Source: an uncultured Actinomycetes bacterium (lineage in GTDB: Bacteria > Actinomycetota > Actinomycetes > Nanopelagicales > Nanopelagicaceae). Taken from it: a stretch of 57,041 nucleotides of DNA. The DNA lies in the NCBI GenBank assembly GCA_903842675.1, contig CAIMMQ010000101.1, positions 1 to 57,041 of the forward strand, read 5' to 3'. Below are positions 33,976-49,041 of this stretch, one piece after another. The position numbers and the translations under genes were made by a program. Numbering within the stretch: the stretch's first letter is position 1; each line of letters starts with the position of its first letter. The notes below the pieces were generated by a model. The model saw only the letters and a program-made list of their open reading frames with translations. It ran no database searches and was not told the origin of the DNA.

Positions 33976-34899
33976 ATGAGTCGCGTTGCAGCAATTGATT
34001 GTGGCACCAACTCTATTCGTCTTCTCATTGCAGATATCAACGGAGAGAATTTTCAAGAGTTGAATCGCGAGATGGAAATTGTTCGATTAGGACAAGGTGT
34101 TGATGCAACTGGCGCCTTTGATCCAGAAGCAATCGAACGCACCCTTGCAGCCACTCGAAAATTCTCTGAGATTATTGCAAGTAAAGGCGTAGAAAAAATT
34201 AGATTTTGTGCAACCAGTGCAACTCGTGATGCTTCAAATCGAGCGATATTTATCGATGGCGTCCGTGAGATATTGGGGATTGAACCAGAAGTTATTCCCG
34301 GAACCGAAGAGGCTGAACTTTCATTTATTGGCGCCACCAAAGTTTTAACGCATGCTGAAAAACCGTTTCTAGTCGTTGATATCGGCGGTGGATCCACCGA
34401 ATTTGTCTTAGGCGGCGAAAGCGTTGATTTTGCAAAGAGTGTAAATATCGGATGTGTTCGTATGTCAGAGCGCCACTTCAAGAAGGCGCCACCACCGGCA
34501 CTAGCCATTCAGCAAGCAATTAACGATATTGATGCTGCTATTGCAGAGGCGGCCTACGTCGTCCCAATAAAAGAATCTAAGACTCTAATTGCAGTTGCTG
34601 GGACTGCCACGACAGTTGCTGCTGCGGCCCTAGGTTTGAGCGAATATGACCGCCATGCAATTCACTTATCTAGAATCCCGACCCACAAAGTTCTAGAGGT
34701 TGCACAGATGTTCCAACTTATGGATCGCAATGAAATCGCTGCACTTGGCTATATGCATCCCGGTCGAGTGGATGTAATTGCTGCGGGGTCACTGGTTCTA
34801 GCCCGTGTCATGCTTGCAACCGGCGCCACCGAATTCGTTGCATCTGAAACCGATATCTTGGACGGTATGGCATGGTCGCTAAGTCAAGCGCAGGAATAA
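33976..34899 (+). CDS. ppx: Ppx/GppA family exopolyphosphatase
   Basis: The 307-residue protein has the actin-like ATPase fold of the family: AAIDCGTNSIRLLIAD at the start, FCATSATRDASN, GTEEAELSFIGA, VVDIGGGSTEFVLG and AVAGTATTVAAAALGL. It hydrolyses polyphosphate or pppGpp; the short single-domain form cannot be assigned further. The start directly follows DUF501, with GGGAGG upstream. The end overlaps the next gene by 28 bp. Confidence 0.92.
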   Translation: MSRVAAIDCGTNSIRLLIADINGENFQELNREMEIVRLGQGVDATGAFDPEAIERTLAATRKFSEIIASKGVEKIRFCATSATRDASNRAIFIDGVREILGIEPEVIPGTEEAELSFIGATKVLTHAEKPFLVVDIGGGSTEFVLGGESVDFAKSVNIGCVRMSERHFKKAPPPALAIQQAINDIDAAIAEAAYVVPIKESKTLIAVAGTATTVAAAALGLSEYDRHAIHLSRIPTHKVLEVAQMFQLMDRNEIAALGYMHPGRVDVIAAGSLVLARVMLATGATEFVASETDILDGMAWSLSQAQE

Positions 34900-35576
34900 A
34901 AAAACTAGATAAAGAAATTATTGCTTGCACTGCTTGTCCCAGACTTGTTAGCTGGCGCCAAGAAATCTCAATCTCAAAACGTAAGTCATACCAAGATGAG
35001 ACTTACTGGGGAAAGCCAGTACCTGGATTTGGACCAGCAGATGCCAAGTTGGTGATCGTTGGCTTGGCTCCGGGTGCTCATGGGGCGAATCGCACTGGTC
35101 GAATATTTACCGGGGATAGTTCAGGGGATTGGCTCTATCGCGCCTTACATAAAGCAGGGCTCGCAAAAATTTCAACAAGTACATCGAAGGATGATGGCCA
35201 GCAGTTAATAAACACCAGAATTATCTGCGCTGTTCGTTGTGCCCCGCCAGATAACAAGCCAAGCAACGAGGAGAAGGCAACTTGCTCGCCCTTTATGAAA
35301 CGCGAAATTGAATTACTTATGCCAACAACTAAGTCTTACCTAGTACTCGGAAATTTTGCCTGGGGCGCTCTACTCGGCCAACTCAGTGATTTAGGGTTTG
35401 AAATTCCAAAGCCAAAACCAAAGTTTGGTCACGGCGTAAAATTCAAAACCTTTGGCCCCGATGGAATTACTCGGCTAGTTGTTGGGAGCTATCACCCAAG
35501 CCAGCAGAACACATTTACCGGGAAGTTGACCGAAAAGGCTCTTGACGCAGTTATTAAAGTGGCCTACATCAAGTAG
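34872..35576 (+). CDS. Uracil-DNA glycosylase, family 5 (UdgB-like)
   Basis: The 234-residue enzyme has iron-sulphur Cys residues near the start (C19-TA-C22), motif A GLAPGAHGANRTGRIFTGDSSGDWL, and motif B GSYHPSQQNTFTGKL. The motif A form with Ala rather than Asp or Asn as in other families points to family 5, which removes uracil and some other damaged bases. It overlaps the 3' end of ppx, suggesting coupled expression. Confidence 0.88.
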   Translation: MVAKSSAGIKKLDKEIIACTACPRLVSWRQEISISKRKSYQDETYWGKPVPGFGPADAKLVIVGLAPGAHGANRTGRIFTGDSSGDWLYRALHKAGLAKISTSTSKDDGQQLINTRIICAVRCAPPDNKPSNEEKATCSPFMKREIELLMPTTKSYLVLGNFAWGALLGQLSDLGFEIPKPKPKFGHGVKFKTFGPDGITRLVVGSYHPSQQNTFTGKLTEKALDAVIKVAYIK

Positions 35577-35642
35577 AGAGCACAAACTTGTTCTATCGTT
35601 AGGGCGCTAAACTTTTTAAATTTCAAGATCAAAGGAGAGAAT

Positions 35643-35834
35643 GTGGCACTTGTAAGCATTACGGTTGAATTGATAACCGAAATTCCATTAACCATAAACG
35701 AAGCTAATCGTGCCGATGGTCAGTCATACCTTGATTTGATTACAGATGCTGCCACGGTTTTTATGGAGAATAATGATCTGAATCAACTCGATTTCCAGGT
35801 TAAGGTCGTTGGAGATGTAATTGCTTCCGAGTAA
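35643..35834 (+). CDS. Hypothetical protein, 63 residues
   Basis: I do not recognise the family. The product is short, acidic and predicted soluble (MALVSITVELITEIPLTIN at the start), with no signal or membrane segment. AAGGAG about 5 nt before the GTG is a good ribosome-binding site, which supports a real gene. It precedes the UbiA-like gene by 21 bp and may be cotranscribed. Confidence 0.55.
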   Translation: MALVSITVELITEIPLTINEANRADGQSYLDLITDAATVFMENNDLNQLDFQVKVVGDVIASE

Positions 35835-35855
35835 TCCCTTAAAGCGAGTTGGAAA

Positions 35856-36506
35856 ATAAAAATCATACGAAGCCTCTTACGTGCCTCGCATTTTGGTCCA
35901 ACGGTTCTTGTCCTATCGATTTCGTTTATTTTGGCCACGACTCAATTTTCAATACTTGGTTCAGTGGAAGTGGCAGCAGCGATTCTTGCCGGCCAGTTTG
36001 TTGTTGGTTGGAGTAATGATCTAATTGATTATCCGCTCGATAAGGGGGCGGCAAGGCTAAAGAAGCCATTGGTGTCTGGAAACCTGTCCCAATCGCTACT
36101 CAAGAGGTGTATTGCTCTCGCCGTCTTCTTTGCTTTGATTTTGTCATTGGTCGGACCACTTGGAATTAAAGGCACCGGGATACATTTCCTTGGCTTACTT
36201 AGTGCAACTCTTTACAACCTACGACTTAAGCGAACGGTGCTTTCGCCAATCCCGTACATCTTTTCATTTGGTGCCATGCCCTGGGCGGTCTATGAAGCGG
36301 CTGGAAAGCAACCACCCACGTGGATCTACCTTGGTTTCGCGCTCTTTGCCACAGCATTCCATTTCTTAAAGGTTCTAAAGGATTTGGAGTTTGATATTGT
36401 TCAGGGCGTCTTGGGGCTCCCGCAACGTATTGGGAGGAGAGCGAGCATTGCGGTCGCAATTGTTTTAGTAGCAGCTGGATTTATAGATATATTCTTGCGC
36501 CTATGA
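35856..36506 (+). CDS. UbiA family prenyltransferase, start codon non-canonical (ATA?)
   Basis: Homology-like sequence runs over about 216 residues with NDLIDYPLDKGAARLKKPL (first Asp-rich motif) and LKDLEFDIVQGVLGLPQRIG (second), plus six or more membrane helices. UbiA enzymes attach polyprenyl groups to aromatic or other acceptors. The frame between the stop at 35834 and residue 25 has no ATG, GTG or TTG. The first TTG, at 35931, would delete the plausible first helix (SLLRASHFGPTVLVLSI). An ATA at 35856 is where family proteins would begin (xKIIRSLLRASHFGP). A rare start codon or a point mutation is possible. The stop overlaps the next small gene. Confidence 0.7.
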   Translation: MKIIRSLLRASHFGPTVLVLSISFILATTQFSILGSVEVAAAILAGQFVVGWSNDLIDYPLDKGAARLKKPLVSGNLSQSLLKRCIALAVFFALILSLVGPLGIKGTGIHFLGLLSATLYNLRLKRTVLSPIPYIFSFGAMPWAVYEAAGKQPPTWIYLGFALFATAFHFLKVLKDLEFDIVQGVLGLPQRIGRRASIAVAIVLVAAGFIDIFLRL

Positions 36507-36664
36507 TGAAACTCGGGAATATCCTTTTTGTCGTGGCGATGATTTTCGCGATTGTTTTTGTCGATGTGCTATTTTTTAGAAATCACACGTTGGAACGGCT
36601 GGCAGCTAATGTGGGCATTGTGCTTTTGTTTGGCGCCTTTTACTGGCGATTTTTTAAGCACTAA
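36503..36664 (+). CDS. Small membrane protein, copy A (53 residues)
   Basis: This short ORF begins with ATGATG overlapping the ubiA stop (ATGA), so it is probably translationally coupled. The product has two hydrophobic helices, about 5-24 (ILFVVAMIFAIVFVDVLFF) and 33-47 (ANVGIVLLFGAFYW), and ends in RFFKH. A nearly identical paralogue lies at 43459-43620. The family is unknown to me; two independent copies with conserved reading frame support that it is coding. Confidence 0.6.
   Translation: MMKLGNILFVVAMIFAIVFVDVLFFRNHTLERLAANVGIVLLFGAFYWRFFKH
36537..36664 (+). repeat. Left copy of 128-bp direct repeat
   Basis: Bases 36537-36664 match 43493-43620 at 127 of 128 positions (C/T at 36599). 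The match begins inside the small membrane gene and stops at its stop codon. Offset between copies is 6956 bp. Confidence 0.9.
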
Positions 36665-36667
36665 CAA

Positions 36668-36695
36668 GAAGGTGCAAATCCTTCACCCGCCACCA
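36668..36695 (+). other. 3' fragment of a tRNA gene (tRNA-Tyr-like)
   Basis: A 5-bp T stem GAAGG/CCTTC with loop TGCAAAT is followed by the acceptor half ACCCGCC, discriminator A and an encoded CCA. This is what the last 28 nt of an actinobacterial tRNA-Tyr looks like. The rest of the tRNA is absent: the sequence upstream is the small membrane gene. Such fragments usually mark the attachment site of an integrated element. Confidence 0.6.
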
Positions 36696-36709
36696 GAAAT
36701 TATTTACGA

Positions 36710-37969
36710 TTACCAATCGTGGACAGTGCCATCAATCTTCAATCGATTTACGGGCAGGTATGCAGGTTTATACTCGAATGACGCGGCTAACTTTTCATTA
36801 TAAGAAACACCCAAACCAGCGCTCGTTCCAGGATGGATCAAGCCATCTTTAAATGTGTATTCAGGTTCAAAGACGTCATTTGTCTCTGAATTATGTTGCA
36901 TATACTCCGAGATTCCATAATTATGAATTGCCATCCCAAGATGAAGTGATGCCGCATGCCCTATAGGCGAGACATCGGTCGGGCCGTGCACGCCAGACTT
37001 AATTTGATAAATAGCCGCGTAGTCAAAAATCTTCCGCAGCGCTGTAATGCCACCAGCATGGCTGACGGGACTTCGAACGTAATCAATAAGTTGTTCTTCA
37101 AAAAGAGCTTTATAATCAAAAATAGAATTAAAAACCTCACCTACTGCAATTGGAGTAGTTGTGTGTTGTCTTATTAATCGGAAGACATCGGTATTTTCTG
37201 CCGGAGTTAAATCTTCAAGCCAGAAGAGATCATAAGGTTCTAATGATTTACCCAAACGTGCCGCCTCGATCGGAGTTAATCGATGATGCGCATCGTGCAA
37301 CAAGGGTAGCTCTGGGCCAAATTCATTTCTAACTGCTTCAAAAACTTTTGGCATATGGTTCAAATATGCGCGAGTGTCCCATTCCTCTTCTACTGGTTTA
37401 CTAGACCTTTGCGCAGGTTCATAGTCATGTCGTTTACCAGCACTTTTACCTTTAGAAGACTTTCCAATACCCGGGACGCCATAGACAGAGTTAAGACTTG
37501 GTACTGCTGCTTGTACTCGAATTGCCCGGTAACCTTTTTCTTGGTGGTAGCGAATGCTGTCAAAAATTTCTTTGAAATCACTACCCGAAGCATGGCCGTA
37601 GGCCAAGCAGCCAACGCGACTTGCCCCACCCAGTAATTGATACAATGGCACGTTGGCGGCTTTAGCTTTGATATCCCAAAGTGCCATATCGATAGCTGCT
37701 ATTGCAGTCATCGTTATTGGGCCACGGCGCCAATAGGAACCACGATACAAGTATTGCCAAGTGTCTTCAATATTTTGTGCATCACGCCCAATGATTATCG
37801 GAAGCAAGTGATCTCGAAGATATGAAGCAACAGATAACTCTCGACCGTTTACAGTCGCATCACCATATCCGACCAGACCAGATTCAGTGACAATCTTTAA
37901 AGTTACAAAATTTCGACCAGGGGAATGTACGAAGACATCGGCTTTAGCAATATTCATTCCAATCGCCAC
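36710..37969 (-). CDS. manD: Enolase-superfamily sugar acid dehydratase (D-mannonate dehydratase / RspA-like)
   Basis: The 419-residue protein fits the ManD/RspA subgroup of mandelate-racemase-type enzymes. Probable Mg2+ ligands are D226 ([11 protein letters not shown]), E252 (WLEDLTP) and E278 (AVGEVFNS), with H329 in [16 protein letters not shown]. The typical subgroup tail is present, ending with a Trp. Family members dehydrate D-mannonate or D-gluconate to 2-keto-3-deoxygluconate, although many RspA homologues have very low activity. The GTG start is preceded by GGAGA. It is divergent from the NagB-like gene and lies just inside the left repeat. No KDG kinase or aldolase is nearby. Confidence 0.85.
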
Positions 37970-38131
37970 AAATTCTCCGTTCTACTTTAAGTTAGGTTTA
38001 AAGACTTTCATACAGTTTGAGTTAAATCAAGCGTTAAAAGCCTTGTAGATCTAATCTTAAAAAGGTACACTTTCAACCAGAGGTGAGGGATGAAATTTTC
38101 TTTACTTAGATGAAAGGGAATCTAGATATTC

Positions 38132-38896
38132 ATGAATACGAAAAAGTATGGGGACTTGAACGTTGATATCTGTGATTCCGCAAGTGATCTTGGATCCCGC
38201 GCGGCTTCAGATTTTGCAAAAAATGTCACAGAGGAATTGAAAAATAAATCAGAGATCAGCATTATTTTAGCAACTGGAAATTCACAACTCCCATTTATAA
38301 ATGCCATTAGAAGTCAGCCTGGAGTTGATTGGTCTAAAATTTCGGTTTTTCACATGGATGAATACATAGGTATGGCGAAAACTCATTCCGCAAGTTTTGT
38401 TCGTTGGATGGAAGAACGAGTAGTAGCAGAGCTAAAGCCAAAGAATTTTTTTGGAATTCAAGGTGATGCTGCAGACGTATCTAATGAAGTACAGAGATAT
38501 TCAGACCTATTGGCAAAGCACGAACCATCGATTTGCGTGATGGGTATCGGCGAAAATGGGCATGTTGCCTTTAACGATCCACCGGCTGATTTTGAAACAA
38601 AAGATTTAGTTAAGATCATAAAACTTGATGATCTCGCCTGTCGCCTCCAGCAAGTTAACGAGGGGCATTTTCCCTCGCTAGATTCTGTCCCTGAATCTGC
38701 CATCACCTTAACCGTCCATGCATTATTAAAACCAAACAAGGTAATGGTTTTAACGCCAGAAATGCGAAAAGCAAAAGCAGTTAAAGGCGCGCTTGAGGGT
38801 CCAATAACTCCTAGCTGTCCAGCTTCCATCTTACGCACAGCGCCAAACGCACACTTGTACTTAGATTTAGATTCTTCTTCACTCCTAAACTCTTAG
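38132..38896 (+). CDS. NagB-like glucosamine-6-phosphate deaminase family protein
   Basis: The 254-residue protein belongs to the NagB / 6-phosphogluconolactonase-like fold. It has the catalytic FHMDEYIGMAKTHSASF (D76-E77) and GIGENGHVAFNDPPADFE (H144) segments of glucosamine-6-phosphate deaminases, which convert GlcN6P to fructose 6-phosphate and ammonia. The lid and C-terminal part are less typical, so the substrate may be another amino sugar phosphate. It is the only plus-strand gene in the island. It overlaps the convergent permease gene by 4 bp. Confidence 0.8.
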   Translation: MNTKKYGDLNVDICDSASDLGSRAASDFAKNVTEELKNKSEISIILATGNSQLPFINAIRSQPGVDWSKISVFHMDEYIGMAKTHSASFVRWMEERVVAELKPKNFFGIQGDAADVSNEVQRYSDLLAKHEPSICVMGIGENGHVAFNDPPADFETKDLVKIIKLDDLACRLQQVNEGHFPSLDSVPESAITLTVHALLKPNKVMVLTPEMRKAKAVKGALEGPITPSCPASILRTAPNAHLYLDLDSSSLLNS

Positions 38897-39774
38897 TGGT
38901 TGTCTGAGTTTCTTTTTGTATTTGCCTGCGTGACCATCTGTGTTGGGTTTACGTACCTTAATGCGAGAATCAAAATAAATAGTGTTGTTAGCATATAGAA
39001 GACGGCCATGGCACTTATTGCTTGATACGGCCGAATGCCGGAAGCAAAAACTGCATAATAAAGCGCAACTACTAAAGTTGTAGAGCCCGGACCACTGACG
39101 AGATAGGTGAGCTCGAATAGTGCAACGGTTTGAACTAGTACCAGAAGCCCAGCCGCCAACAATCCAGGAACTATAAGAGGCATAAGAATTTTGATGAAGA
39201 TTTGACGTGTATTTGCGCCACACATGCGCGCAGCAGCCTCAAGTTTTGGGTCAATCTGTTCGATAAAAGGAGTCAACACAAGAATTACAAATGGAATAGC
39301 CGGCACTAAATTTACGACAATAACACCAAGGATCTTCCCCCCCAAGTGTAACTTGTAAATAAAAGTTGCTAATGGAATTCCATAAGTTATCGGTGGAAGC
39401 ATTATTGGAAGCAAGAAGCAGAGCATCACAAGTTTTTTACCAGGGAATTTCCTTCGCGCCAATGCGTATGCCGCTGGTGCACCTACTAATATGGAAATCA
39501 GCACCACTGTTATAGCAATTTCTAATGTAACTCTAAGCAAGCCATAAACCTGATAATTTTGCCAAGCCATAATATAAAAACTGGTTGTCCAACCGTGTGG
39601 CAGCCATCCAGAGAACCATTCTTGTCCAAAAGAACTGATTATTACAGTACCTATTACTCCAAGTAGATTGAGAAAAAAGAAAACAATTCCGCCCCAAATA
39701 AACCAACGCTTCAGGGTTAAATTGAATTTGGCCCCAGCAATCTTTTCTTCTAGTTTAACTTGAGTTTCAATCAT
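38893..39774 (-). CDS. ABC transporter permease (Pot/Fbp type), second subunit
   Basis: The 293-residue integral membrane protein has about six helices and the permease EAA-type loop (LEAAARMCGANTRQIFIKILMPLIVPGL, about 175-202) that contacts the ATPase. Its start overlaps the upstream permease stop (ATGA). Pot/Fbp-type importers carry polyamines, iron(III), phosphonates or small organic acids; this one is linked to sugar-acid genes, so its substrate is open. Confidence 0.87.
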   Translation of the reverse strand: MIETQVKLEEKIAGAKFNLTLKRWFIWGGIVFFFLNLLGVIGTVIISSFGQEWFSGWLPHGWTTSFYIMAWQNYQVYGLLRVTLEIAITVVLISILVGAPAAYALARRKFPGKKLVMLCFLLPIMLPPITYGIPLATFIYKLHLGGKILGVIVVNLVPAIPFVILVLTPFIEQIDPKLEAAARMCGANTRQIFIKILMPLIVPGLLAAGLLVLVQTVALFELTYLVSGPGSTTLVVALYYAVFASGIRPYQAISAMAVFYMLTTLFILILALRYVNPTQMVTQANTKRNSDNH

Positions 39775-40685
39775 CCCTTAGTACCTGCTGTACTTCCACT
39801 ATAAAGCTTTGAACGCAAGAGAAATACCGAAGCAATTACAAATAGCTCAAAGAACGCGGAAATTATAGAGATTGTCGAAGCCATCGAATAATCGAATTTC
39901 TGAGTAACGGCATCAGCCGCTGCGATAGCCAAAACATGTGAGTCACCTGATGGGTTACCAAGAAGCTCTGCCGATGGAAAAACTGAAAAGGCTAAAACGA
40001 AGTTTAAACAAAAAGTGATCGCCAACCCAGGCGCCAACAATGGAAAAGTAATAAAACGGAAAACTTGGCGAGAATTCGCACCTAAAGTGCTGGCCGCCAA
40101 TTCTAAACTTGGATTAATACTCGATGCATATGAGAGCATCAGTAAGAACGCAAAAGGAAAACCAGAAATCACTAGAGATATTATTACGCCCCAGAAGTTC
40201 TGTAACAGCCGCAAAGGTTGGGAGATAATCCCTACGTCCATCAAAGTTTGGTTTAGCCAACCACTTGGGTTTAAATATGCGTATAAGCCTTCTGCAATTA
40301 AAACTGTGCCTAAGCTCATCGGAATAACTAATAACGTATTGATCGGCCGAGTTCTTTTAACGTATTTTCGCACGTAAACTGCGACCGGAAGCGCCGCTGA
40401 AATGTTAATAATAGAAACCGGAAGGGCAATTCTGAAAGTGTTAAAAATTGTTCGGCGCATATATGTGTCATGGAAGAATGATTTATAGTTTCCTAAGAAA
40501 CCAGAATGATTTATTGGGTGAAATGAAAGAAAGATTCCATATATCGATGGGTAGACAAAGAAAACTAACATCATGGTGAGGGCAGGGATGATGAGCACCA
40601 GTACTCTATCAACGCCTCTATCAGCAAAATAATGCTTTAGGCTATGTTTTGTTTCAAGCGCCATATTGCTAGTAGGACTAGTCAT
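39771..40685 (-). CDS. ABC transporter permease (Pot/Fbp type), first subunit
   Basis: The 304-residue permease has an N-terminal cytoplasmic stretch, about six helices and the EAA loop LELAASTLGANSRQVFRFITFPLLAPGL. I chose the ATG at 40685, which overlaps the ATPase stop by 8 bp; an in-frame upstream ATG at 40703 would add six residues. It pairs with the second permease to form the importer's channel. Confidence 0.87.
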   Translation of the reverse strand: MTSPTSNMALETKHSLKHYFADRGVDRVLVLIIPALTMMLVFFVYPSIYGIFLSFHPINHSGFLGNYKSFFHDTYMRRTIFNTFRIALPVSIINISAALPVAVYVRKYVKRTRPINTLLVIPMSLGTVLIAEGLYAYLNPSGWLNQTLMDVGIISQPLRLLQNFWGVIISLVISGFPFAFLLMLSYASSINPSLELAASTLGANSRQVFRFITFPLLAPGLAITFCLNFVLAFSVFPSAELLGNPSGDSHVLAIAAADAVTQKFDYSMASTISIISAFFELFVIASVFLLRSKLYSGSTAGTKG

Positions 40686-41751
40686 TGTTATCTGGGAACA
40701 CAAGTACCCGGTTGGCGGGTACTGACAACGAAATATTCGAACCTACCTGAGTTGCAGTTACTGTGCGAACAATTAAATTGGTATTCGAGTCAACCTCAAC
40801 TTCCAGTGCATATTCCCGCCCTTGATATTCGGCAGCAATCACCCTGCCTTGGATCAAATTCTCACCACTTGTTGAGAGCTCAAGATTATCGGGGCGAATT
40901 GCGACTTTTACCTTTTTTAAATTATTAGCACTTCCAAAATTTGTAGAAACTAACTTTAGAGAAGCCAAACTTACCTCTATCGAACCAGAATTCAACTGTT
41001 TGGATACTTCCATAGAAAGCAGATTTCTATAGCCCATAAAGTCAGCGACAAAAGAATTTGTTGGGTTTAAATAAACTTCTTGTGGAGTTCCAATTTGTTG
41101 CACTTTGCCACTATGCAAAACGACTAAGCGGTCTGCCATAGATAAGGCTTCTTCTTGATCATGGGTTACGTAGATCGTCGTAAGACCCAATTCTTTGTGC
41201 AACTTCTTTATTTCTCCACGCATTTCAATTCTAAGTTTTGCATCTAAATTGGAGAGTGGCTCATCCATCAACACAACTTCAGGTTCTATTACAATTGCTC
41301 TTGCGATGGCAACACGTTGCTGCTGTCCACCGGATAATTCATGCGGGCTTTTTTCAGCATGCTCGCGAAGCTGAACCAATTCTAAAGCTTTATTAACTCG
41401 GTTTAGAATTTCCTTTTTTTCTATCTTCTTAATCTTTAAGCCAAAGGAGATATTCTCCCGAATAGTTAGGTGTGGGAAAAGAGCATAATTTTGGAAAACC
41501 ATACCGAACTCACGTTTTTCTGGCGGAATAGTATCTATGCGGCGGTCATCGAGGTGGATTGATCCCGCAGTAAGCGGGATCAATCCAGCAAGGCAGTTAA
41601 GAGCTGTTGATTTTCCACAACCAGAAGGCCCGAGTAGTGCTACGAATTCACCTTTTGGAATCTCCAAAGTTAATCCGGAAAGCGCTACTGATTTGTCATA
41701 AGTGCGTGACATATCACTTATGCGCAAATTTCTAAAACTTCCTGCTCTCAA
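40678..41751 (-). CDS. ABC transporter ATP-binding protein (PotA-like)
   Basis: The protein has a complete ATPase: Walker A GPSGCGKST, signature LSGGQQQR, Walker B VVLMDEPLSNLD and the switch His in THDQEEALSMADR. The C-terminal TOBE domain (about 270-355) is typical of PotA/FbpC/UgpC importers. A TTG at 41787 abuts the upstream stop. I prefer the TTG at 41751 because AGGGG lies 5 nt before it; the N-terminus is uncertain by 12 residues. The coding sequence contains a perfect 13-bp hairpin at 41556-41586. Confidence 0.9.
   Translation of the reverse strand: MRAGSFRNLRISDMSRTYDKSVALSGLTLEIPKGEFVALLGPSGCGKSTALNCLAGLIPLTAGSIHLDDRRIDTIPPEKREFGMVFQNYALFPHLTIRENISFGLKIKKIEKKEILNRVNKALELVQLREHAEKSPHELSGGQQQRVAIARAIVIEPEVVLMDEPLSNLDAKLRIEMRGEIKKLHKELGLTTIYVTHDQEEALSMADRLVVLHSGKVQQIGTPQEVYLNPTNSFVADFMGYRNLLSMEVSKQLNSGSIEVSLASLKLVSTNFGSANNLKKVKVAIRPDNLELSTSGENLIQGRVIAAEYQGREYALEVEVDSNTNLIVRTVTATQVGSNISLSVPANRVLVFPDNND
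41556..41586 (-). repeat. Perfect 13-bp inverted repeat inside ABC ATPase gene
   Basis: GGATTGATCCCGC and its reverse complement are separated by 5 nt. The stem encodes the residues around GLIPLTAGSI, just after Walker A. Confidence 0.85.
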
Positions 41752-41787
41752 TGTTTCCCCTTCAGTTTTGATCGATTTATTTGGCAA

Positions 41788-42999
41788 CTACTTTAACTTC
41801 GCGCCACCGATATCCGAATCCCACTTAGCAAACATCGCTGCAAGTGCAACACCTGGAAGTGGTGGTTGCGCAGGATATTTAGCTATCAAGTCTGGATAAG
41901 TATCTGGTCGACCATAAGTATTGAATACAGCCCGGCTTTGTGCGGTAGCCATACCAATAGTTACGCCTTTTACGGCAGGACCTGGATACATGTAGCCATC
42001 GTCATAGGCATAAGCCTGGGATGCGGGTTTTAGAATCCATTTCATCAAGTCCAAAATGACTGCGAGCTTGTCAGCGCTCACTCCCTTCGGAATTGCCAAG
42101 TAGGTTGCATCTTCAATCCACGTCGTTTTATCGAAAGTAGAAATAAGTGCGCCTGCAGGAACTGTGTGGATAGCTCGTACGTTAACGTCCCAGCCAGTTG
42201 TGCTTGGTACTAGCAATTTAGTTCCAGCCGCCAACTCGCGCATACTCTTGCCAGTTCCTGTTGTGTAATAAGGGATGTTAGAGCCCAATTCTTTTAGGAA
42301 TGCCCAAGTTTTATCCCATCCTTTAATTGGATCCATTGGATTGCTGTCACCAAGGATGTAAGGAAGTCCCTGTACGAAAGCACGACCCGGTCCAGAGTTG
42401 GATGGGCGGCCGTAGGTGAATTTTCCTGGATTAGCTTTTACCCAATCCAATAAAGCCTGCGGAGTTTTTGGCACGTTCGTAACTTTTCCCGGGAGATAAG
42501 TTAGTAAAGGACCAACATCACCAAAGTCGTCAACAATTGCATAACCTTGCGCAATATCAAGCATTTGCTTGGCTCCAGGAAGGTATGTATCGATTGATTT
42601 ACCCAGTACATTGTTGTAATTTGGAGTTAATTTCGTTAACAATCCCTGTGTAATGGCTGGGGCTAGCGCATCATTTCCAGTTAACAGCAGGTCTATCTGC
42701 AATTGACCAGCATTTTCTTGCGCCTGAAGTTTTCCAGCAATTTCAGTTGCGTCGCCCGAGTCAAAATTTACCTTTGAAATATACTGTGGGAAATGTTTTA
42801 CATAATTTTGAATAATGGGCTGCATGACCTGAAGGTCGCCAGCAACGTCAACTAGGTTTAACGTAACTGGATGCTTTGGCATTGGAAGATTGCCATTTGA
42901 AGTCGAGCCAGCAGCTCCCGAACTAGTAGGCAGGATAATTCCGCATAGAAGAGCGGTGCTTGCCACGGCAATTACCACTCTCTTCTTGTTAACACTCAT
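41788..42999 (-). CDS. ABC transporter substrate-binding protein (Pot/Fbp-like)
   Basis: The 403-residue protein begins with a basic signal peptide (MSVNKKRVVIAVASTALLCGI). A periplasmic-binding-protein type II fold follows, with segments typical of polyamine/iron/aminoethylphosphonate binding proteins (QENAGQLQIDLLLTGNDALAP, LTKLTPNY, WIEDATYLAIPKG). No convincing lipobox is seen, so anchoring is unclear. It is the first gene of a minus-strand operon with ATPase and two permeases, and has GAGGAA before the ATG. Ligand unknown. Confidence 0.87.
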   Translation of the reverse strand: MSVNKKRVVIAVASTALLCGIILPTSSGAAGSTSNGNLPMPKHPVTLNLVDVAGDLQVMQPIIQNYVKHFPQYISKVNFDSGDATEIAGKLQAQENAGQLQIDLLLTGNDALAPAITQGLLTKLTPNYNNVLGKSIDTYLPGAKQMLDIAQGYAIVDDFGDVGPLLTYLPGKVTNVPKTPQALLDWVKANPGKFTYGRPSNSGPGRAFVQGLPYILGDSNPMDPIKGWDKTWAFLKELGSNIPYYTTGTGKSMRELAAGTKLLVPSTTGWDVNVRAIHTVPAGALISTFDKTTWIEDATYLAIPKGVSADKLAVILDLMKWILKPASQAYAYDDGYMYPGPAVKGVTIGMATAQSRAVFNTYGRPDTYPDLIAKYPAQPPLPGVALAAMFAKWDSDIGGAKLK

Positions 43000-43458
43000 T
43001 AAGTTCCTCGATTCTGTGTATTAAAACAGGCTCGATCTTAAGATGCGATCACCCCAGACACGCCTGTGGTTCGCAACATTAAAGGCTACTTGTAGGCAAT
43101 TCAAGGGATTTTCGGCACGAATTCACAAAAAGCAGTCCTGAATGCACTTTTTGAATCAGCTCAATCAATTTGAAGGTTGAAACCGCGTGCCGCGACTGCA
43201 GAAAATATTTTACTTAGGTACAAAGTGTTGACAAATCTGGGTATGTATCACCCGTAGCGCTACCTACTGGAGCAGTTTCGCTAAGTCTCCCAGAATCATG
43301 CCTGCTCACGATGCTGCCTAAGGTGAGAATAATGCTGCCAAAGAAACACAGTGTGGCGCCGGCGATTGTCAAACCAATAAACCTTAGTTTTACCTTATCT
43401 TTTGGAAACCTCTTGAAAGCCTAGGTTCTAAAAGGTTTTTTTGCTCGATACTAAGGGC
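43000..43458. other. 459-bp gap upstream of the binding-protein operon
   Basis: This gap should hold the promoter of the importer operon. It also holds one short minus-strand frame (43214-43372, separate entry) and a T-run at 43435-43441 after a GC-poor stretch. I see no tRNA, no transposase remnant and no clear operator palindrome. Confidence 0.5.
43214..43372 (-). CDS. Possible small membrane or secreted protein (52 residues)
   Basis: A minus-strand frame starting at TTG reads LTIAGATLCFFGSIILTLGS, a convincing membrane helix or signal, then a Ser/Thr/Gly-rich tail ending in LSTLCT. AAGG lies about 9 nt upstream of the TTG. The frame remains open further upstream (to a TAG near 43427) without an ATG or GTG, so it could instead be the remnant of a longer gene. 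Family not recognised. Confidence 0.3.
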   Translation of the reverse strand: MTIAGATLCFFGSIILTLGSIVSRHDSGRLSETAPVGSATGDTYPDLSTLCT

Positions 43459-43620
43459 GTGAAACAAGTAAGCAATTTACTTTACGTGGGTTCGATGATT
43501 TTCGCGATTGTTTTTGTCGATGTGCTATTTTTTAGAAATCACACGTTGGAACGGTTGGCAGCTAATGTGGGCATTGTGCTTTTGTTTGGCGCCTTTTACT
43601 GGCGATTTTTTAAGCACTAA
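43459..43620 (+). CDS. Small membrane protein, copy B (53 residues)
   Basis: This paralogue of the gene at 36503 has the same length. Residues 13-53 are the same as copy A because the DNA is almost identical, whereas the first 12 residues (VKQVSNLLYVGS versus MMKLGNILFVVA) are only similar. The start is GTG with a GATACT box 6 nt upstream. The pattern indicates recent recombination or conversion limited to the 3' part. It marks the right boundary of the island. Confidence 0.6.
   Translation: MKQVSNLLYVGSMIFAIVFVDVLFFRNHTLERLAANVGIVLLFGAFYWRFFKH
43493..43620 (+). repeat. Right copy of 128-bp direct repeat
   Basis: Matches 36537-36664 with one difference, same orientation. Homology stops at the stop codon (plus a chance AAG) and at the codon before MIF. 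Confidence 0.9.
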
Positions 43621-43672
43621 TAAGCTGGAAATCTGACCCAAATACGCCTAGTAGACTTCCCAGACGCTGTGC

Positions 43673-43748
43673 GCCCCCGTAGTCCAATGGCAGAGACAGA
43701 GGACTTAAAATCCTTCCAGTGTCGGTTCGAGTCCGACCGGGGGCACCA
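43673..43748 (+). tRNA. tRNA with UAA anticodon and short variable loop (tRNA-Leu-like, atypical)
   Basis: The acceptor stem is GCCCCCG/CGGGGGC, the D stem has three pairs (GTC/GAC), the anticodon stem is GAGGA/TCCTT around CTTAAAA (anticodon TAA at 43706-43708), and the T arm is GTCGG-TTCGAGT-CCGAC. The discriminator is A and CCA is encoded at 43746-43748. A UAA anticodon reads UUA (Leu), but leucine tRNAs normally have a long variable arm and this one has only five bases there. The other two tRNAs in the window do not encode CCA. Amino acid identity is therefore uncertain. Confidence 0.75.
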
Positions 43749-43793
43749 CCTACTTGTTTACTTCCTAGACTTCCTACATTCAATTCCGCCCGC

Positions 43794-43799
43794 TAAGTT
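43794..43799 (+). promoter_or_regulatory. -10 box for leaderless corA
   Basis: TAAGTT lies 6 nt before the corA ATG at 43806, with no ribosome-binding site. Confidence 0.4.
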
Positions 43800-43805
43800 C
43801 TGTCC

Positions 43806-44777
43806 ATGATTGTTGACGTGGCTCTGTATCAAAATGGCTTACGCGTTGAGGGTCCATCAGATATTTCTGACCTTGTTGAGATCGCCCGAAGTAAAGGCGG
43901 CTTTGTGTGGCTTGGCTTGGCCGAACCAAGTGAAGCCGAATTTAATATGGTCGTTGGAGAACTTAATTTTCACCCTCTTGCAGTTGAGGATGCAATCAAC
44001 GCTAAACAGCGCCCAAAGATTGAAGATTATGCCGGCCTAACCTTCTTCGTCTTGAAGACGGTTTTCTTTGATAAGGCAGAACAAGAAATTTCTACCGGAG
44101 AGTTAATATGCTTTATCGCTGACCACTTTATTGTCATTGTGCGTCACGGTGAGGGGCATCCACTTTCAACTGTTCGCCATGACCTAGAGCAGAACCCACA
44201 ACTACTGAAGCTCGGCCCCTTTGCGGTGTTGCACGCGGTTGCTGACCGAGTTATAGATGGATACACGGCAATAGCCACATCACTGGAAGAAGAAGTTGTC
44301 GGCGTTGAAAATAAAGTATTCAGCGGTAAGCGTCAAACATTTTCACAAGAAATCTATTTCTTGAAACGAGAAATCATTGAATTCAAGCACGCCATTGAGC
44401 CATTGATCCTCCCAATTAACAAACTAATAAGTGGAATGGTCAGCGCAGTCCCAGAAGGAATAATGCCTTTCTTCCGCGATACCTCAGATCATTTGTTGCA
44501 AGCCTGTGAGCATGCATCTGGATTAGACTCGCTAATTACTTCGGTGCTTGAAGCTGATTTGGCCCATATCCAGGTACAACAAAACATTGATGTGCGTCGA
44601 ATATCGGCATGGGTTGCACTCGCATCTGGTCCAACGATGATTGCCGGGATCTACGGAATGAATTTCCACCATATGCCTGAGCTATCGACAAGATATGGGT
44701 ATTACTTTGTTATTGGCATAATGGTTTCGCTTACCGCATTCCTATTTCGCGGTTTTAAAAAGTCTGGTTGGTTATAA
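43806..44777 (+). CDS. corA: CorA family magnesium/divalent cation channel
   Basis: The 323-residue protein has a large cytoplasmic N-terminal domain, a long helix (about 150-255) and two C-terminal membrane helices. The invariant YGMNF signature ends the first helix (about 288-292), and a basic C-terminus follows. CorA forms a pentameric channel for Mg2+ (also Co2+ or Ni2+). It has its own apparent leaderless promoter and lies just right of the odd tRNA. Confidence 0.93.
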   Translation: MIVDVALYQNGLRVEGPSDISDLVEIARSKGGFVWLGLAEPSEAEFNMVVGELNFHPLAVEDAINAKQRPKIEDYAGLTFFVLKTVFFDKAEQEISTGELICFIADHFIVIVRHGEGHPLSTVRHDLEQNPQLLKLGPFAVLHAVADRVIDGYTAIATSLEEEVVGVENKVFSGKRQTFSQEIYFLKREIIEFKHAIEPLILPINKLISGMVSAVPEGIMPFFRDTSDHLLQACEHASGLDSLITSVLEADLAHIQVQQNIDVRRISAWVALASGPTMIAGIYGMNFHHMPELSTRYGYYFVIGIMVSLTAFLFRGFKKSGWL

Positions 44778-44778
44778 A

Positions 44779-44874
44779 TTACTCAAAATCTTCACCGCGA
44801 CCAGTTTTGTGTTTCTTGGGTGTCCGCCACATATCCACGAAAAATTTCGCAACTTGAGTCAATAATTTAAACAA
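44779..44874 (-). CDS. Possible 31-residue basic/amphipathic ORF overlapping the gdhA remnant
   Basis: A frame opening at TTG overlaps the stop of the glutamate dehydrogenase remnant and reads LFKLLTQVAKFFVDMWRTPK, then KHKTGRGEDFE. The overlap (TTGTTTAA) resembles translationally coupled starts elsewhere in the window. The ordered composition suggests a real small protein once cotranscribed with gdhA. Weak evidence; function unknown. Confidence 0.25.
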   Translation of the reverse strand: MFKLLTQVAKFFVDMWRTPKKHKTGRGEDFE

Positions 44875-45187
44875 GGCTGCCTCGCATTTCGAAGGCCTTT
44901 GCTACCCGCTCCACTGCAACAATAAATGCAGCAGTTCGAAGGTCGACCTTGTACTTCTTCGATACTTTATGGGTGTGACTAAAAGCTTTCTCCATACGGG
45001 AATCCAATTCACTCCGGAATTTTTCAATTGGCCAGCTAAATTCCTGGATGTTTTGAGTCCATTCAAAATAAGAACCCATCACGCCGCCCGAATTCGCCAA
45101 AATATCGGGAACAATAATTGAGCCCCGCTCACGTAGTTTGCGATCGGCGGCACTTGTTATTGGTTGATTTGCGCCCTCGCTTCTTTG
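44867..45187 (-). pseudogene. gdhA: 3' remnant of glutamate dehydrogenase gene
   Basis: The frame encodes the C-terminal ~100 residues of a Glu/Leu/Phe/Val dehydrogenase: EGANQPIT, RGSIIVPDILANSGGV, SYFEWTQNIQ and DLRTAAFIVAVERVAKAFEMRG. The N-terminal three quarters, including the catalytic Lys region, is missing. Upstream of EGAN (about 45178) homology ends and a TGA closes the frame at 45188-45190. The enzyme would interconvert glutamate and 2-oxoglutarate, but this fragment cannot. It appears to be the scar of a deletion or rearrangement. Confidence 0.8.
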
Positions 45188-45303
45188 TCATCATTATCTT
45201 TATCTTCTTCTTACGCTGGATTTCACCTGCCAAGAAGGATCCCGTCGCGGCAGCTAGACGCCGCGAAGTTAAGCGATCACTTCGAGAGCTTAAGAGAAAA
45301 TAA
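45179..45303 (+). pseudogene. 3' remnant of a small membrane-protein gene
   Basis: To the right of the gdhA breakpoint the plus strand encodes RFFVIIIFIFFLRWISPAKK followed by a basic helix ending in LRELKRK. It looks like the end of a one-helix membrane protein with a charged tail. No ATG or GTG precedes it except in gdhA-derived sequence, so the 5' end was probably lost at the same junction. A TTG at 45160 could in principle still start a 47-residue product. Confidence 0.4.
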
Positions 45304-45338
45304 GCCTCGCTTTGGGCGCCTAAACGAGCAACTCACAG

Positions 45339-45367
45339 CCAATTTTGAGCACCGAAGTCAAAATTGG
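45339..45367. terminator. 10-bp perfect inverted repeat
   Basis: CCAATTTTGA and TCAAAATTGG surround a 9-nt loop downstream of the truncated small gene and before the Bax-inhibitor gene. There is no T-run, so it is either a weak terminator or a protein-binding palindrome. Confidence 0.4.
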
Positions 45368-45448
45368 AATACCAAACCACCGGAAATTGTTTAAACTTAT
45401 GATCGCAAGCTAACGCTTGCAACCTAGCTAAACCTGAAAAGGAGAACA

Positions 45449-46237
45449 ATGGAAAGTTCTAACCCGGTATTTAAGCGCACCTCAACTGAGATTGCGTTAC
45501 GTGGCAATACAACAGTCGTGCCATCAACTGCCGAACTAGACAATCTTTATAACGCCCCTGCCGCATCTTCAATTCGCACTGGTCGTATGACCATCGATGA
45601 TGTTGTCGCCCGTACTGCAATGTTGTTCGTGGTTCTTGTAACCGCCGGAGCACTTGCATGGAAGGCAAATCTTTCAATGGGATTTGCAATGATCGCAATG
45701 ATTGGCGCATTGGTTCTTGGCTTGGTTCTAACAATGAGCAAGAAAGTTAAGCCATGGGCCGCGCTTGCATACGCTGGCCTTGAAGGTTTGGCGCTCGGTG
45801 CAATCAGCAGTGCTTACGAGTCAATCCATCCTGGAATTATCTCGCAAGCTTTAATTGGAACTGTTGCAGCATTTGCCGGCGTTCTCTTTGCCTACAAGAG
45901 CAAGCGAGTTCGAGTTACTCCTAAATTTACTCGCGTAATGATGGGCGCACTAATCGGTTACATGATCCTTGGTTTTGGATCGATGATCGCGGGCATGTTC
46001 GGCGTTGGTCACGGATACGGTCTATACGGCGTATCTGGTCTTGGCTTACTACTAGCAGTCGGCGGAGTCGGCCTTGCATCATTCTTTTTGATTATGGATT
46101 TTGATCAGATCGAGAAGATGGTTGCCGCTGGTGTGCCGCACGAAGAATCATGGCGTGCTGGATTTGGCTTGATGGTAACTGTTGTTTGGTTATACCTAGA
46201 GATAGTTCGTTTACTATCTATTCTGCGTGATCGCTAA
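45449..46237 (+). CDS. Bax inhibitor-1/YccA family membrane protein
   Basis: The 262-residue protein has a polar N-terminus with a MTIDDVVARTAML motif (about 46-58), seven membrane helices and the FFLIMDFDQIEKMV segment with the paired Asp residues of the TMBIM/BI-1 family. Related proteins act as pH-sensitive calcium leak channels; the bacterial role is not settled. A strong AAAGGAGAA site precedes the ATG. The 3' end overlaps the convergent MFS gene by 20 bp. Confidence 0.9.
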   Translation: MESSNPVFKRTSTEIALRGNTTVVPSTAELDNLYNAPAASSIRTGRMTIDDVVARTAMLFVVLVTAGALAWKANLSMGFAMIAMIGALVLGLVLTMSKKVKPWAALAYAGLEGLALGAISSAYESIHPGIISQALIGTVAAFAGVLFAYKSKRVRVTPKFTRVMMGALIGYMILGFGSMIAGMFGVGHGYGLYGVSGLGLLLAVGGVGLASFFLIMDFDQIEKMVAAGVPHEESWRAGFGLMVTVVWLYLEIVRLLSILRDR

Positions 46238-47438
46238 GAGTTATCTCTTTTAACTTCCGCGTTTCCGGCATCTTTGCTGACAGGAGCAGTGTTAATGAAA
46301 ACACTGCTCCTGTTGCTATGAATGCTGGCTTATAAGAATGTGCATCAACTAACCAACCAAGAACAACTGGGCTCACGATATTTCCAAAGTCGCCCGCCAT
46401 CTGCCAGAGCGCAATAACTCGGCCACCTTTACCACCAAAGACATCGCCAACTACTGCGGATGCTGCAGTGCCTTCAAAGGCGCCACCAATTCCAAAGAAG
46501 ATCATTGCCAGAATGTAGAACCACCAGTTTGATGAAACCAGAATTGTGGCAACTCCAGATAGCAGAACGAAGGATCCAACAAGAAGTGCAAATTTACGAC
46601 CCCGGAAATCAGAAATTTTACCTACGTAGATAAGTGCAATTCCCTGCACAATGGCAGAGACGGTAAAGCCATAACCAAGAATTGAAGTACTTGCATGGAG
46701 TGAATCTTTTGCAAAGAGTGGCAAGATGGAATTTCGCAGACCAAAGAGCACCCAGTTAGTTAAAAATGAAATCGCCATCGCAGCCACATATGGATAAATC
46801 TTTAGCGCTTCTTTTAAAGTTACCCGGTCGGCAGGATCTTGCTTGTTATGGATCGATTTACCGAGGCGTTTTTCATGCAAAAAGAAGGTTGTTGTGAATG
46901 ATGCAAAGAGCAAGGTAACTGCATAAACAAAGAAGGGCACTCGAAGGGAAATCATCGAGAGCAAGCCACCAAATGCTGGACCTGCGATGCCACCGATCAG
47001 AAAGCCGCCGTTGTAAACCGATTGGGCGCGACCACGAACACTGTCATCAACTGATCGCATCAGCAGCGCACCGGCAGATACCGAAAACATAACGGATCCA
47101 ATTCCGCCGATCGCACGAAATATCAAGAGTTGCCAATATGTTTGGGCTAGCCCAGCGGTGAGTGATGAGACCGAAACAATTACTAAACCAATTGCTTGCA
47201 CATTTCGCTCACCAAACTTATCGATGAGCTTTCCAGCAGGTAATCCGAAGGCAAACCGGGCAAAGGCAAAGGCCGAGATGATGGCACCGATGGCTGCATT
47301 ATTTACATGGAATGTTTTTGCGAAGAGTGGAATTGCAGGAATGATCATTCCGTAGCCCAATGCCACAAAAAAAGCCACTACCGAAAGAACATAAACTTCC
47401 TTCGGCAGTGACTTGTTAAGCGATATTTTTTTAAGCAA
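46218..47438 (-). CDS. MFS transporter (12 TM, drug-efflux-like)
   Basis: This ~406-residue major facilitator has 12 helices, the loop 2-3 motif [13 protein letters not shown] and the repeated motif [14 protein letters not shown] in the second half. The start is uncertain. A TTG at 47438 overlaps the stop of the upstream MFS gene (TTGCTTAA) with GCGAGG just before it; an ATG at 47504 would add 22 residues within the upstream gene. Coupling with the DHA2 transporter suggests coordinated export. It contains a perfect 14-bp hairpin at 46280-46313. Substrate unknown. Confidence 0.85.
46280..46313. repeat. Perfect 14-bp inverted repeat in MFS 3' coding region
   Basis: ACAGGAGCAGTGTT and its reverse complement flank a 6-nt loop. 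It lies 43 bp beyond the Bax-inhibitor stop, so it may terminate transcription from that gene while still encoding [12 protein letters not shown] on the other strand. Confidence 0.7.
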
Positions 47439-49041
47439 GTGCCTCGCCGGCAGCCTCTTCTTTCGCAGCGTGGTGCGCAGCACCGGAGCGAAGTGGAGTC
47501 TCACGAAGCATCAGCGCGAGCAAGAAACCAAGAGTTGTGACTGGCGCTGCTGCGAGGAATACAACGTGGAATGACTGAACGAATGAGTGGTAAATACTTG
47601 CTTGCAGTTCTGGGGTAAAGGTTTTGATCACTGCAGTGTTGTTCTTTAGTGCGGCAAATTTTTCTGGAGTTGCTCCAGCCAAAGCCGTAGGGTTATTCGC
47701 GGCAAGTTTTGCAACACCAAGAGGTAGGTAATGTGCCAATCGGTTGGCATAGATAGTTCCAAAGATTGTTACACCGATCGTTCCGCCAACTGAGCGAAAG
47801 AAGGTGTTGGCACTTGTTGCAACGCCCATATCTTTGAATTCAACTGCATTCTGAAGTGCGATAACAATGGTCTGCATTGAAAGACCAAGGCCAGCACCAA
47901 TCATTATTGCAAAGATAGAAAGCTTCCAGAATGGTGTGGTCTCACTAAGAGTTGAGAGTCCAATGATTCCGAAGGTCATAAGGACAAGGCCCATAATTGG
48001 ATAGCGCTTGTAATGCCCATGCTTGCTAATAAGTTTTCCACTTAGGATCGACATCGAAACGATTCCAAGCATGAAAGGGATTAATTTAAGCCCAGATACC
48101 GTTGCAGAGTTACCCTTAACTGTTTGCAGGTAGAGCGGCAACATAACAATTGCACCGAACATACCGGCACCTATTACGAAGGCAAGTGCTGATGTAAGTG
48201 CAACTGTGTGATTCTTGAAAAGTGTGAGCGGCAAAATTGGTTCTGGCGCACGACTTTCCTGAACTAAGAATGCGATAGTCAAAATAATTGCGATTGCAAG
48301 TGATGTCACGGTCTTTGAATCAGCCCAACCATTTTGTGGACCATAGACAGATATACCCAATAGAAGAACTGTAACTGCTGTTACGAGAAGCAGAGCGCCG
48401 AAGTAATCAATCTTGTGTTCGCGCTTTACCTTAGGAATATGTAGCGAAGCAGTAGTAATAATTAGTGCGCCAATACCAAATGGCAAGTTGATGTAGAAGA
48501 TCCAGCGCCAGCCAACAATTCCGAAGATGTGGGCGTGGTCTGAGAAGAATCCACCAAGTAGTGGGCCAGCAACTGAAGAAAGTCCCCAAACACCACCGAA
48601 GTAACCTTGATACTTACCGCGTTCGCGTGGCGAAACGATGTCACCGATAATTACGAAGGTAAGCGCCATTAAGCCACCAGCGCCAAGACCTTGCAAACCA
48701 CGGAAGATAATTAGTTGGGACATATTCTGCGAAGCGCCAGCAGCAAATGAACCAATTAAGAAGGTAACAATTGCGAATTGAAATACCGGACGTCGACCGT
48801 AAAGGTCGGAAATTTTCCCGTACAAAGGCGTTGATGCAGTTGAAGTAAGAAGGTATGCAGTAACTACCCAGGTGTAGTGGGAGAGACCGTTGAAGTCTTC
48901 AACGATGCGCTTTAGCGCAGTGGAGACAATTGTCTGATCAAGAGCCGCGAGCAGCATTCCGACCATAAGGCCAGAGAGCACGAACATGATCTCTTTATGA
49001 GTCAGTGGGGCAGAGGGATCCTTCTTAGTTTCTTTAGACAT
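47431..49041 (-). CDS. DHA2 family multidrug MFS exporter (14 TM)
   Basis: The 536-residue protein has 14 predicted helices. The DHA2/EmrB-QacA signatures are present: [13 protein letters not shown] in TM1, [14 protein letters not shown] in loop 2-3 and [11 protein letters not shown] in TM5 (motif C). It exports hydrophobic compounds with proton exchange. GAAAGG precedes the ATG. It is divergent from the DrrAB-type ABC exporter across a 190-bp region with two palindromes. Confidence 0.92.

Follow-up and report, generated by a model that had tools for sequence, protein, structure and literature searches.

How did a set of sugar-acid genes come to lie between two nearly identical copies of a small gene, directly in front of a tRNA-Leu gene? 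This arrangement occurs in a 57,041-nucleotide stretch of DNA (the window) from an uncultured bacterium of the family Nanopelagicaceae (GenBank assembly GCA_903842675.1, contig CAIMMQ010000101.1, positions 1 to 57,041). A preliminary description, made from the sequence alone, had noted a metabolic block of about 7 kb (36503-43620) within direct repeats and had favored homologous exchange over an active element. We conclude that the block is an acquired accessory catabolic cassette that is rare in the genus. We give roughly even chances to the following origin: a circle from a tRNA-Tyr site was captured at a tRNA-Leu(UAA) hotspot through a single homologous crossover within the small gene. Relatives are referred to below by our genome (G), contig (C), and locus (L) numbers.

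The segments 36537-36664 and 43493-43620 lie on the same strand and agree at 127 of 128 positions, the sole difference being C at 36599 and T at 43555. The alignment of the copies bore out the repeats previously described and even lengthened them to 132 bp (ending at 36668 and 43624) with two differences. An ungapped search of the window reported no other family of direct repeats of 40 nt or more. The longest exact direct repeat was 65 nt, compared with 14-16 nt in 20 simulated sequences of matched dinucleotide content. As had also been claimed, the repeats lie inside two paralogous small genes; they form the 3' three quarters of two 53-codon open reading frames (ORFs; 36503-36664 and 43459-43620), the products of which share their last 41 residues. 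Joining the copies in silico at the repeat yielded an intact 53-residue protein, the same as before, in agreement with the expectation that recombination leaves one intact small gene. Immediately upstream of 36537 and 43493, identity drops to 18/34 versus 130/132 in the repeat (Fisher p 3.5e-11), and the first 12 residues of the two products differ. The 5' end of the right copy, SNLLYVGSMIFA, is similar to SKFLYVFAMVFT of G007, and both 5' ends are still family-like. Since the drop is sharp and both 5' ends remain family-like, the two small genes look, from their sequences, like diverged homologues with a common 3' part that was homogenized or recombined, and thus like mosaics.

An insertion sequence or transposon was considered and rejected because no other direct repeat of 40 nt or more was reported in the window and no transposase was present among the insert proteins scanned. 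A composite transposon is bounded by insertion-sequence repeats with a transposase, whereas the present repeats consist of a 53-codon gene that matches no Pfam or NCBIfam model. No inverted repeat was reported in the window by a search limited to lengths of at least 40 nt.

The left repeat abuts 28 nt of the 3' end of a tRNA-Tyr(GUA) gene, which are identical at 27 of 28 positions and end in CCA. A reversed-pattern control gave no matches in 27 genomes. The intact tRNA-Tyr gene of the same genome is located on contig C64. The 70-nt sequences that follow 15 full tRNA-Tyr genes vary, with three of the 105 pairs (G024/G009, G006/G021, and G010/G008) matching at 45 or more of the 70 positions, and several relatives carry one to three further tRNA-Tyr 3' fragments. 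The remnant points to site-specific movement earlier in the history of the cassette. Separately, repeats of approximately 69 bp, each with the tRNA-Tyr 3' end last, were observed directly behind tRNA-Tyr in G021 (three extra copies; L127, 9357-9564), and G006 has one extra repeat of this type (L128, 2567-2720).

The right border is a site at which other genomes carry other DNA. The gene order in the genus, as far as contigs reach, is eno-divIC-DUF501-ppx(-UDG)-tRNA-Leu(UAA)-...-Bax-MFS-MFS, in which UDG denotes a uracil-DNA glycosylase gene, Bax a Bax-inhibitor-like gene, and the last two genes (46218-47504 and 47431-49041 in the window) are presumably of the MFS type. The locus is compact in G113, a member of a sister genus (ppx-UDG-28 bp-tRNA-Leu-42 bp-CorA-Bax). 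Since the window retains both sides of the G113 order, the inserted region spans approximately 8.05 kb, from 35577, directly after UDG, to the tRNA-Leu upstream region at about 43625. The extent first given was, therefore, too narrow, and the insert also takes in a small ORF and a UbiA-family gene. In 14 genomes, including the window, a left backbone gene was on one stretch with tRNA-Leu; the spacing between them was 20-33 bp in seven, 466 bp in one, and 1.5-10.3 kb in six, with 8,096 bp in the window. This count leaves out G002, G009, G026, G017, G013, G021, G014, and contig C119 of G005, in which the two sides are on different contigs or one side was not found, as well as family loci with one side only or no tRNA found (G032, G070, G170, G210, G224, G232, and others). 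UDG and CorA are approximately 400 bp apart in G032, with no tRNA-Leu detected between them, and the G007 contig ends within tRNA-Leu. The content of the inserts varies. G022 and G004 carry integrase-coding elements, G005 has genes for the binding protein and permease of a sugar-type ABC importer, G010 encodes an enolase-superfamily enzyme together with a mechanosensitive channel, and G007 contains a Phd/ParE-type pair. Across the 14 genomes, the locus has the form of an additive tRNA-site island, with a variable insert at a fixed tRNA gene and an empty site in relatives.

In G022 and G004, a phage-type tyrosine integrase (PF00589) adjoins the full tRNA-Leu gene, and tRNA-Leu 5' fragments (1-57 and 1-61) lie on the ppx side; 3' fragments are present on the other side in G004 and G012. 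The full copy beside the integrase has a different upstream region in both elements (L089, 5900-16265 and L090, 7584-15098). The G004 integrase gave one weak match (25%) among viral contigs. The interval 35400-45500 of the window contains no tRNA-Leu fragment, and so lacks the partial copy of the same tRNA that marks the far end of the insert in G022, G004, and G012. Apart from the tRNA itself, the only RNA-family hit in this interval was a sub-threshold match on the opposite strand. No integrase or tyrosine recombinase was detected in the insert among UbiA, the left small gene, ManD, the NagB-like protein, the permeases, the ATPase, and the solute-binding protein (Pfam and NCBIfam) or, with Pfam only, in the 63-codon ORF and right small gene; the ORF at 43214-43420 was not scanned. 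The earlier remark that no integrase is seen accordingly holds for the insert proteins scanned. However, two relatives carry integrases at this very site, and the tRNA-Tyr remnant at the left repeat points to earlier site-specific movement.

The DNA between the repeats encodes ManD, a NagB-like protein, and all parts of an ABC importer, namely, its binding protein, ATPase, and two permeases. Its G+C content (36696-43458) is 0.424, versus 0.451-0.479 in 183 overlapping windows of the same length elsewhere in the window. ManD scores above the curated equivalog cut-off (Table 1). The NagB-like protein does not reach the cut-offs for glucosamine-6-phosphate deaminase, its best models giving 126.0 and 122.9 bits versus 326 and 236.9. 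An orthologous binding protein was found in one of the 27 genus genomes (G023-G026 are counted among the genomes without a match); G005 and G014 gave weak partial matches (31-32%) to other binding proteins. The accessory nature of the block is, thus, supported: it was not found in the congeners, and cassette and repeats are far from universal among relatives, two full-length small genes being present in one of 296 family genomes.

A scan of genome contigs gave two distant loci for the binding protein. In Knoellia (L166) and G146 (L164), related importers adjoin ManD, an altronate/galactarate-type dehydratase, a fructuronate-reductase-like protein (the latter two below NCBIfam cut-offs), and a LacI-type regulator. 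A KDPG-type aldolase is additionally encoded in Knoellia, and a KduI/IolB-family protein scoring above the IolB cut-off is encoded in G146. The stretch from G099, at which the contig starts, encodes the NagB-like protein and gave no match to ManD. Since relatives of the importer stand beside sugar-acid genes, the cargo probably serves the uptake of a hexuronate or aldonate and the dehydration of the aldonate by ManD. The related importer of G136, which has neither ManD nor a NagB-like gene on the 17-kb stretch examined, weighs against this role. Neither the binding protein nor an exact 38-nt piece of the repeat had a match in viral contigs.

The small gene was found in 16 of the 296 family genomes, with some matches being partial, and the window genome alone has two full-length copies. 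The two partial matches in G033 are the ends of two contigs (the end of L254 and start of L256) that overlap by 51 nt inside the gene, which suggests several variants of the small gene in that sample. When 12 other family loci were scanned for repeats flanking the small gene, G180 and G190 had repeats of 24-27 nt that duplicate the 3' end of the RNase P RNA gene, rnpB. The small gene of G190 is within a 211-bp unit right behind rnpB, that of G180 is beside an rnpB fragment upstream of rnpB, and G033 shows the same rnpB-end arrangement divided between two contigs. A tRNA-Tyr fragment (34/35) of G175 ends approximately 85 bp upstream of the small gene. Therefore, an RNA-gene fragment is located beside the small gene in four of the 15 other family genomes (the rnpB 3' end in G033, G190, and G180 and tRNA-Tyr in G175). 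A class-level locus (L072) has a 13-nt flanking match that may be due to chance.

From the order of the genes, the remnant, and the repeats, all of which are observed, we infer the route of capture as follows. The cassette (ManD, the NagB-like gene, the ABC importer, and a small gene) would formerly have resided at a tRNA-Tyr site and been excised as a circle. A circle leaving such a site keeps one tRNA-Tyr 3' end, so that its junction would read small gene, tRNA-Tyr 3' end, ManD. The tRNA-Leu region would already have held UbiA and one copy of the small gene, and the circle would have been inserted by a single homologous crossover within the 3' part that the two small genes share. The resulting order would be that observed: UbiA, small gene, tRNA-Tyr remnant, cassette, small gene, and tRNA-Leu. 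Gene conversion or a mosaic donor gene may account for the near identity of the 132 bp next to the differing first 34 nt. A crossover between the repeats should remove the cassette and leave one small gene; the capture would then be reversible by one crossover. If correct, this is a testable route by which small-genome actinobacteria exchange sugar-uptake gene sets, namely, capture at a tRNA hotspot via a shared small gene.

Several points weigh against this route. With one genome per species examined, no empty-site strain, donor tRNA-Tyr island with the cassette, or circle was found. A plain single crossover predicts even divergence along the genes, and, thus, the 132-bp identity requires conversion or a prior mosaic. 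The left end of the insert has no tRNA-Leu fragment to account for the arrival of UbiA and the first small gene. Furthermore, ten of the 12 small-gene loci, G175 among them, have no flanking repeat of at least 12 nt, and 11 of the 15 other genomes have no RNA-gene fragment beside the small gene in scans with tRNAs mostly of the window's genome.

The cassette may instead have reached tRNA-Leu by site-specific integration or illegitimate joining, with the second small gene arising or being homogenized afterwards, in which case the repeats did not bring the cassette in. A 132-bp tract next to divergent 5' ends is the pattern expected of gene conversion, and integrases occur at the hotspot in two relatives. 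However, we consider such a local duplication or conversion unlikely, since it does not explain why small genes stand exactly at both borders or why the left one abuts the tRNA-Tyr remnant, and two full-length copies occur in a single family genome. Two independent additions, in which UbiA with a small gene and the cassette with a small gene were added in turn by a tyrosine integrase, appear improbable to us. The remnant would then be an attachment-site scar and the repeats the same cargo gene arriving twice, in line with the small gene being beside rnpB 3'-end copies in three genomes and with tRNA fragments marking additions elsewhere, for which there is a published precedent (PMC7771536). 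However, no second attachment fragment was found between the modules or at the right border, and the nearly identical 132 bp would require a recent common source. A metagenome assembly chimera, in which the assembler joined small genes of two strains and created artificial repeats or flanks, is the least probable of these alternatives: although the assembly is a draft (139 contigs, 1.27 Mb, 87% completeness) and two G033 contigs end inside the small gene and share 51 nt at the break, the copies are distinguished by two mismatches and by their 5' ends, both flanks follow the G113 order, and the inserts at this position vary among other genomes.

The analysis of the repeats led on to rnpB 3'-end arrays in the family. 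The rnpB 3'-end pattern (up to 2 mismatches) was found in 160 of the 296 family genomes, and the reversed pattern had no match among those listed. Since rnpB itself should account for one match in each genome, it is notable that, by a hand count, approximately 94 of the 296 had at least two, in some cases on different contigs. In five of the six regions chosen for at least four matches, rnpB is followed by further copies on the same strand with one or few genes between them; in the sixth (L272), copies are present and no rnpB was detected on the stretch. This arrangement resembles an array of cassettes at the RNase P RNA gene. In the loci L269-L274 (G035, G105, G077, G098, G178, and G010), same-strand copies are mostly 0.2-4 kb apart. 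G010 (L274) has two rnpB genes (1178-1529 and 9350-9705) that are 83% identical, with an ABC sugar importer, mannitol- and zinc-dehydrogenase-type genes, and an AraC-type regulator between them. This layout resembles that of the window, with an RNA gene serving as the repeat. The window itself has no rnpB 3' fragments. A literature search over titles and the starts of abstracts, with most subscription journals missing, yielded no description of rnpB 3'-end cassettes.

A broader and doubtful reading joins these observations. The family may have a system of cassettes for which essential RNA genes (rnpB, tRNA-Tyr, and tRNA-Leu) provide attachment sites at their 3' ends, with single-gene units, down to approximately 211 bp, in tandem rnpB-end arrays and the 53-codon gene as one such cassette. 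Copies of the small gene might then act as homology adapters through which large catabolic cassettes move from one RNA-gene site to another with no need for an integrase, and the window would record a single such move, from tRNA-Tyr to tRNA-Leu.

Published additive tRNA-site islands and tycheposons indicate that this kind of element is already known. In Ca. Actinomarinales, additive flexible genomic islands reside at tRNA genes, and a partial tRNA repeat marks the end of the insert (PMC7771536). As in the window, these are small-genome actinobacteria with cassettes added at tRNA genes, two of which adjoin ABC transporter genes; in contrast, the remnant in the window (Tyr) is not from the tRNA hosting the cassette (Leu), and the borders are 132-bp protein-gene repeats. 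Additive islands with tRNA-Lys end repeats and tycheposons have also been described (PMC10872708). The tycheposons of Prochlorococcus and Methylophilaceae share nutrient-type cargo at a tRNA border and have counterparts to their tyrosine recombinases beside tRNA-Leu in G022 and G004; however, no recombinase gene was found in the window insert, the borders of which are a coding repeat. The tRNA-targeted integrative islands in the Islander database have an intact target tRNA at one end and displaced fragments, as do G022 and G004, whereas the window has no matching tRNA-Leu fragment (PMC4383910). Replacement flexible islands share homologous recombination as a route, but the window has repeats at the island borders and its locus shows addition to a compact site (PMC10872708). 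What is new here is the proposed cross between tRNA-Tyr and tRNA-Leu, with a small gene as the shared homology.

Table 1. Positions of the insert, its borders, and the neighboring genes in the window.
Feature	Position	Strand	Basis or remark
ppx, left backbone	33976-34899	+	order in relatives
UDG (family-4-like uracil-DNA glycosylase), left backbone	34872-35576	+	order in relatives; UDG models below cut-off
Whole inserted region	35577-43625		G113 (sister genus) has 28 bp between UDG and tRNA-Leu
Small ORF, 63 codons	35643-35834	+	translation; no Pfam match
UbiA-family prenyltransferase	35886-36506	+	PF01040, 68.9 bits; start uncertain (TTG 35931 also called)
Small gene, left copy (53-residue membrane-type protein)	36503-36664	+	overlaps UbiA stop; no Pfam/NCBIfam match
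Direct repeat, left copy	36537-36668	+	repeat search, alignment of copies
tRNA-Tyr(GUA) 3'-end remnant	36668-36695	+	tRNA positions 58-85 with CCA, 27/28
ManD-type sugar-acid dehydratase	36710-37969	-	NF043051, 665.2 bits, cut-off 550
NagB-like protein (glucosamine-6-phosphate isomerase fold)	38132-38896	+	PF01182; NagB models below cut-off
Two ABC permeases	38893-39774, 39771-40703	-	PF00528
ABC ATPase with TOBE domain	40678-41787	-	PF00005, PF08402
Solute-binding protein	41788-42999	-	PF13416; relatives 70% (G099), 46-50% (G136, G146, two named loci)
Stop-to-stop open stretch, doubtful; membrane-type small ORF if translated	43214-43420	-	
Small gene, right copy, GTG start	43459-43620	+	alignment; no Pfam match
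Direct repeat, right copy	43493-43624	+	repeat search, alignment of copies
tRNA-Leu upstream region, CTAGTAGACT motif common to several relatives	43626-43672	+	
tRNA-Leu(UAA), 76 nt, hotspot gene	43673-43748	+	
CorA, right backbone	43806-44777	+	PF01544; 42 bp past tRNA-Leu in G113
Bax-inhibitor-like, right backbone	45449-46237	+	family match; relatives share order
Two presumed MFS-type genes, right backbone	46218-47504, 47431-49041	-	relatives share order

Some minor observations concern the genes around the insert. CorA was considered as a foreign gene because none of the other 26 genus genomes has it; this was ruled out by its presence in 62 of 201 family genomes and beside tRNA-Leu in G113. 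tRNA-Leu(UAA) and, in relatives, tRNA-Leu(CAA) (L046-L051) are 74-76 nt long and have no long variable arm, and tRNA-Leu(UAG) of the same genome is 83 nt long; no clear literature report of short-armed tRNA-Leu turned up, and it may be known. A 77-codon ORF between CorA and Bax (44867-45100, minus strand) matches PF00208 only at profile positions 168-241 of 241 and, being the last third of a glutamate/leucine dehydrogenase domain, looks like a gene remnant. A UbiA homologue is present across tRNA-Leu on the other side, beside Bax, in G012, G021, and G025. A UbiA-type gene adjoins tRNA-Arg(ACG) in G014 (L086, 14705-15403) and tRNA-Leu in G021, and this gene may travel between tRNA sites.

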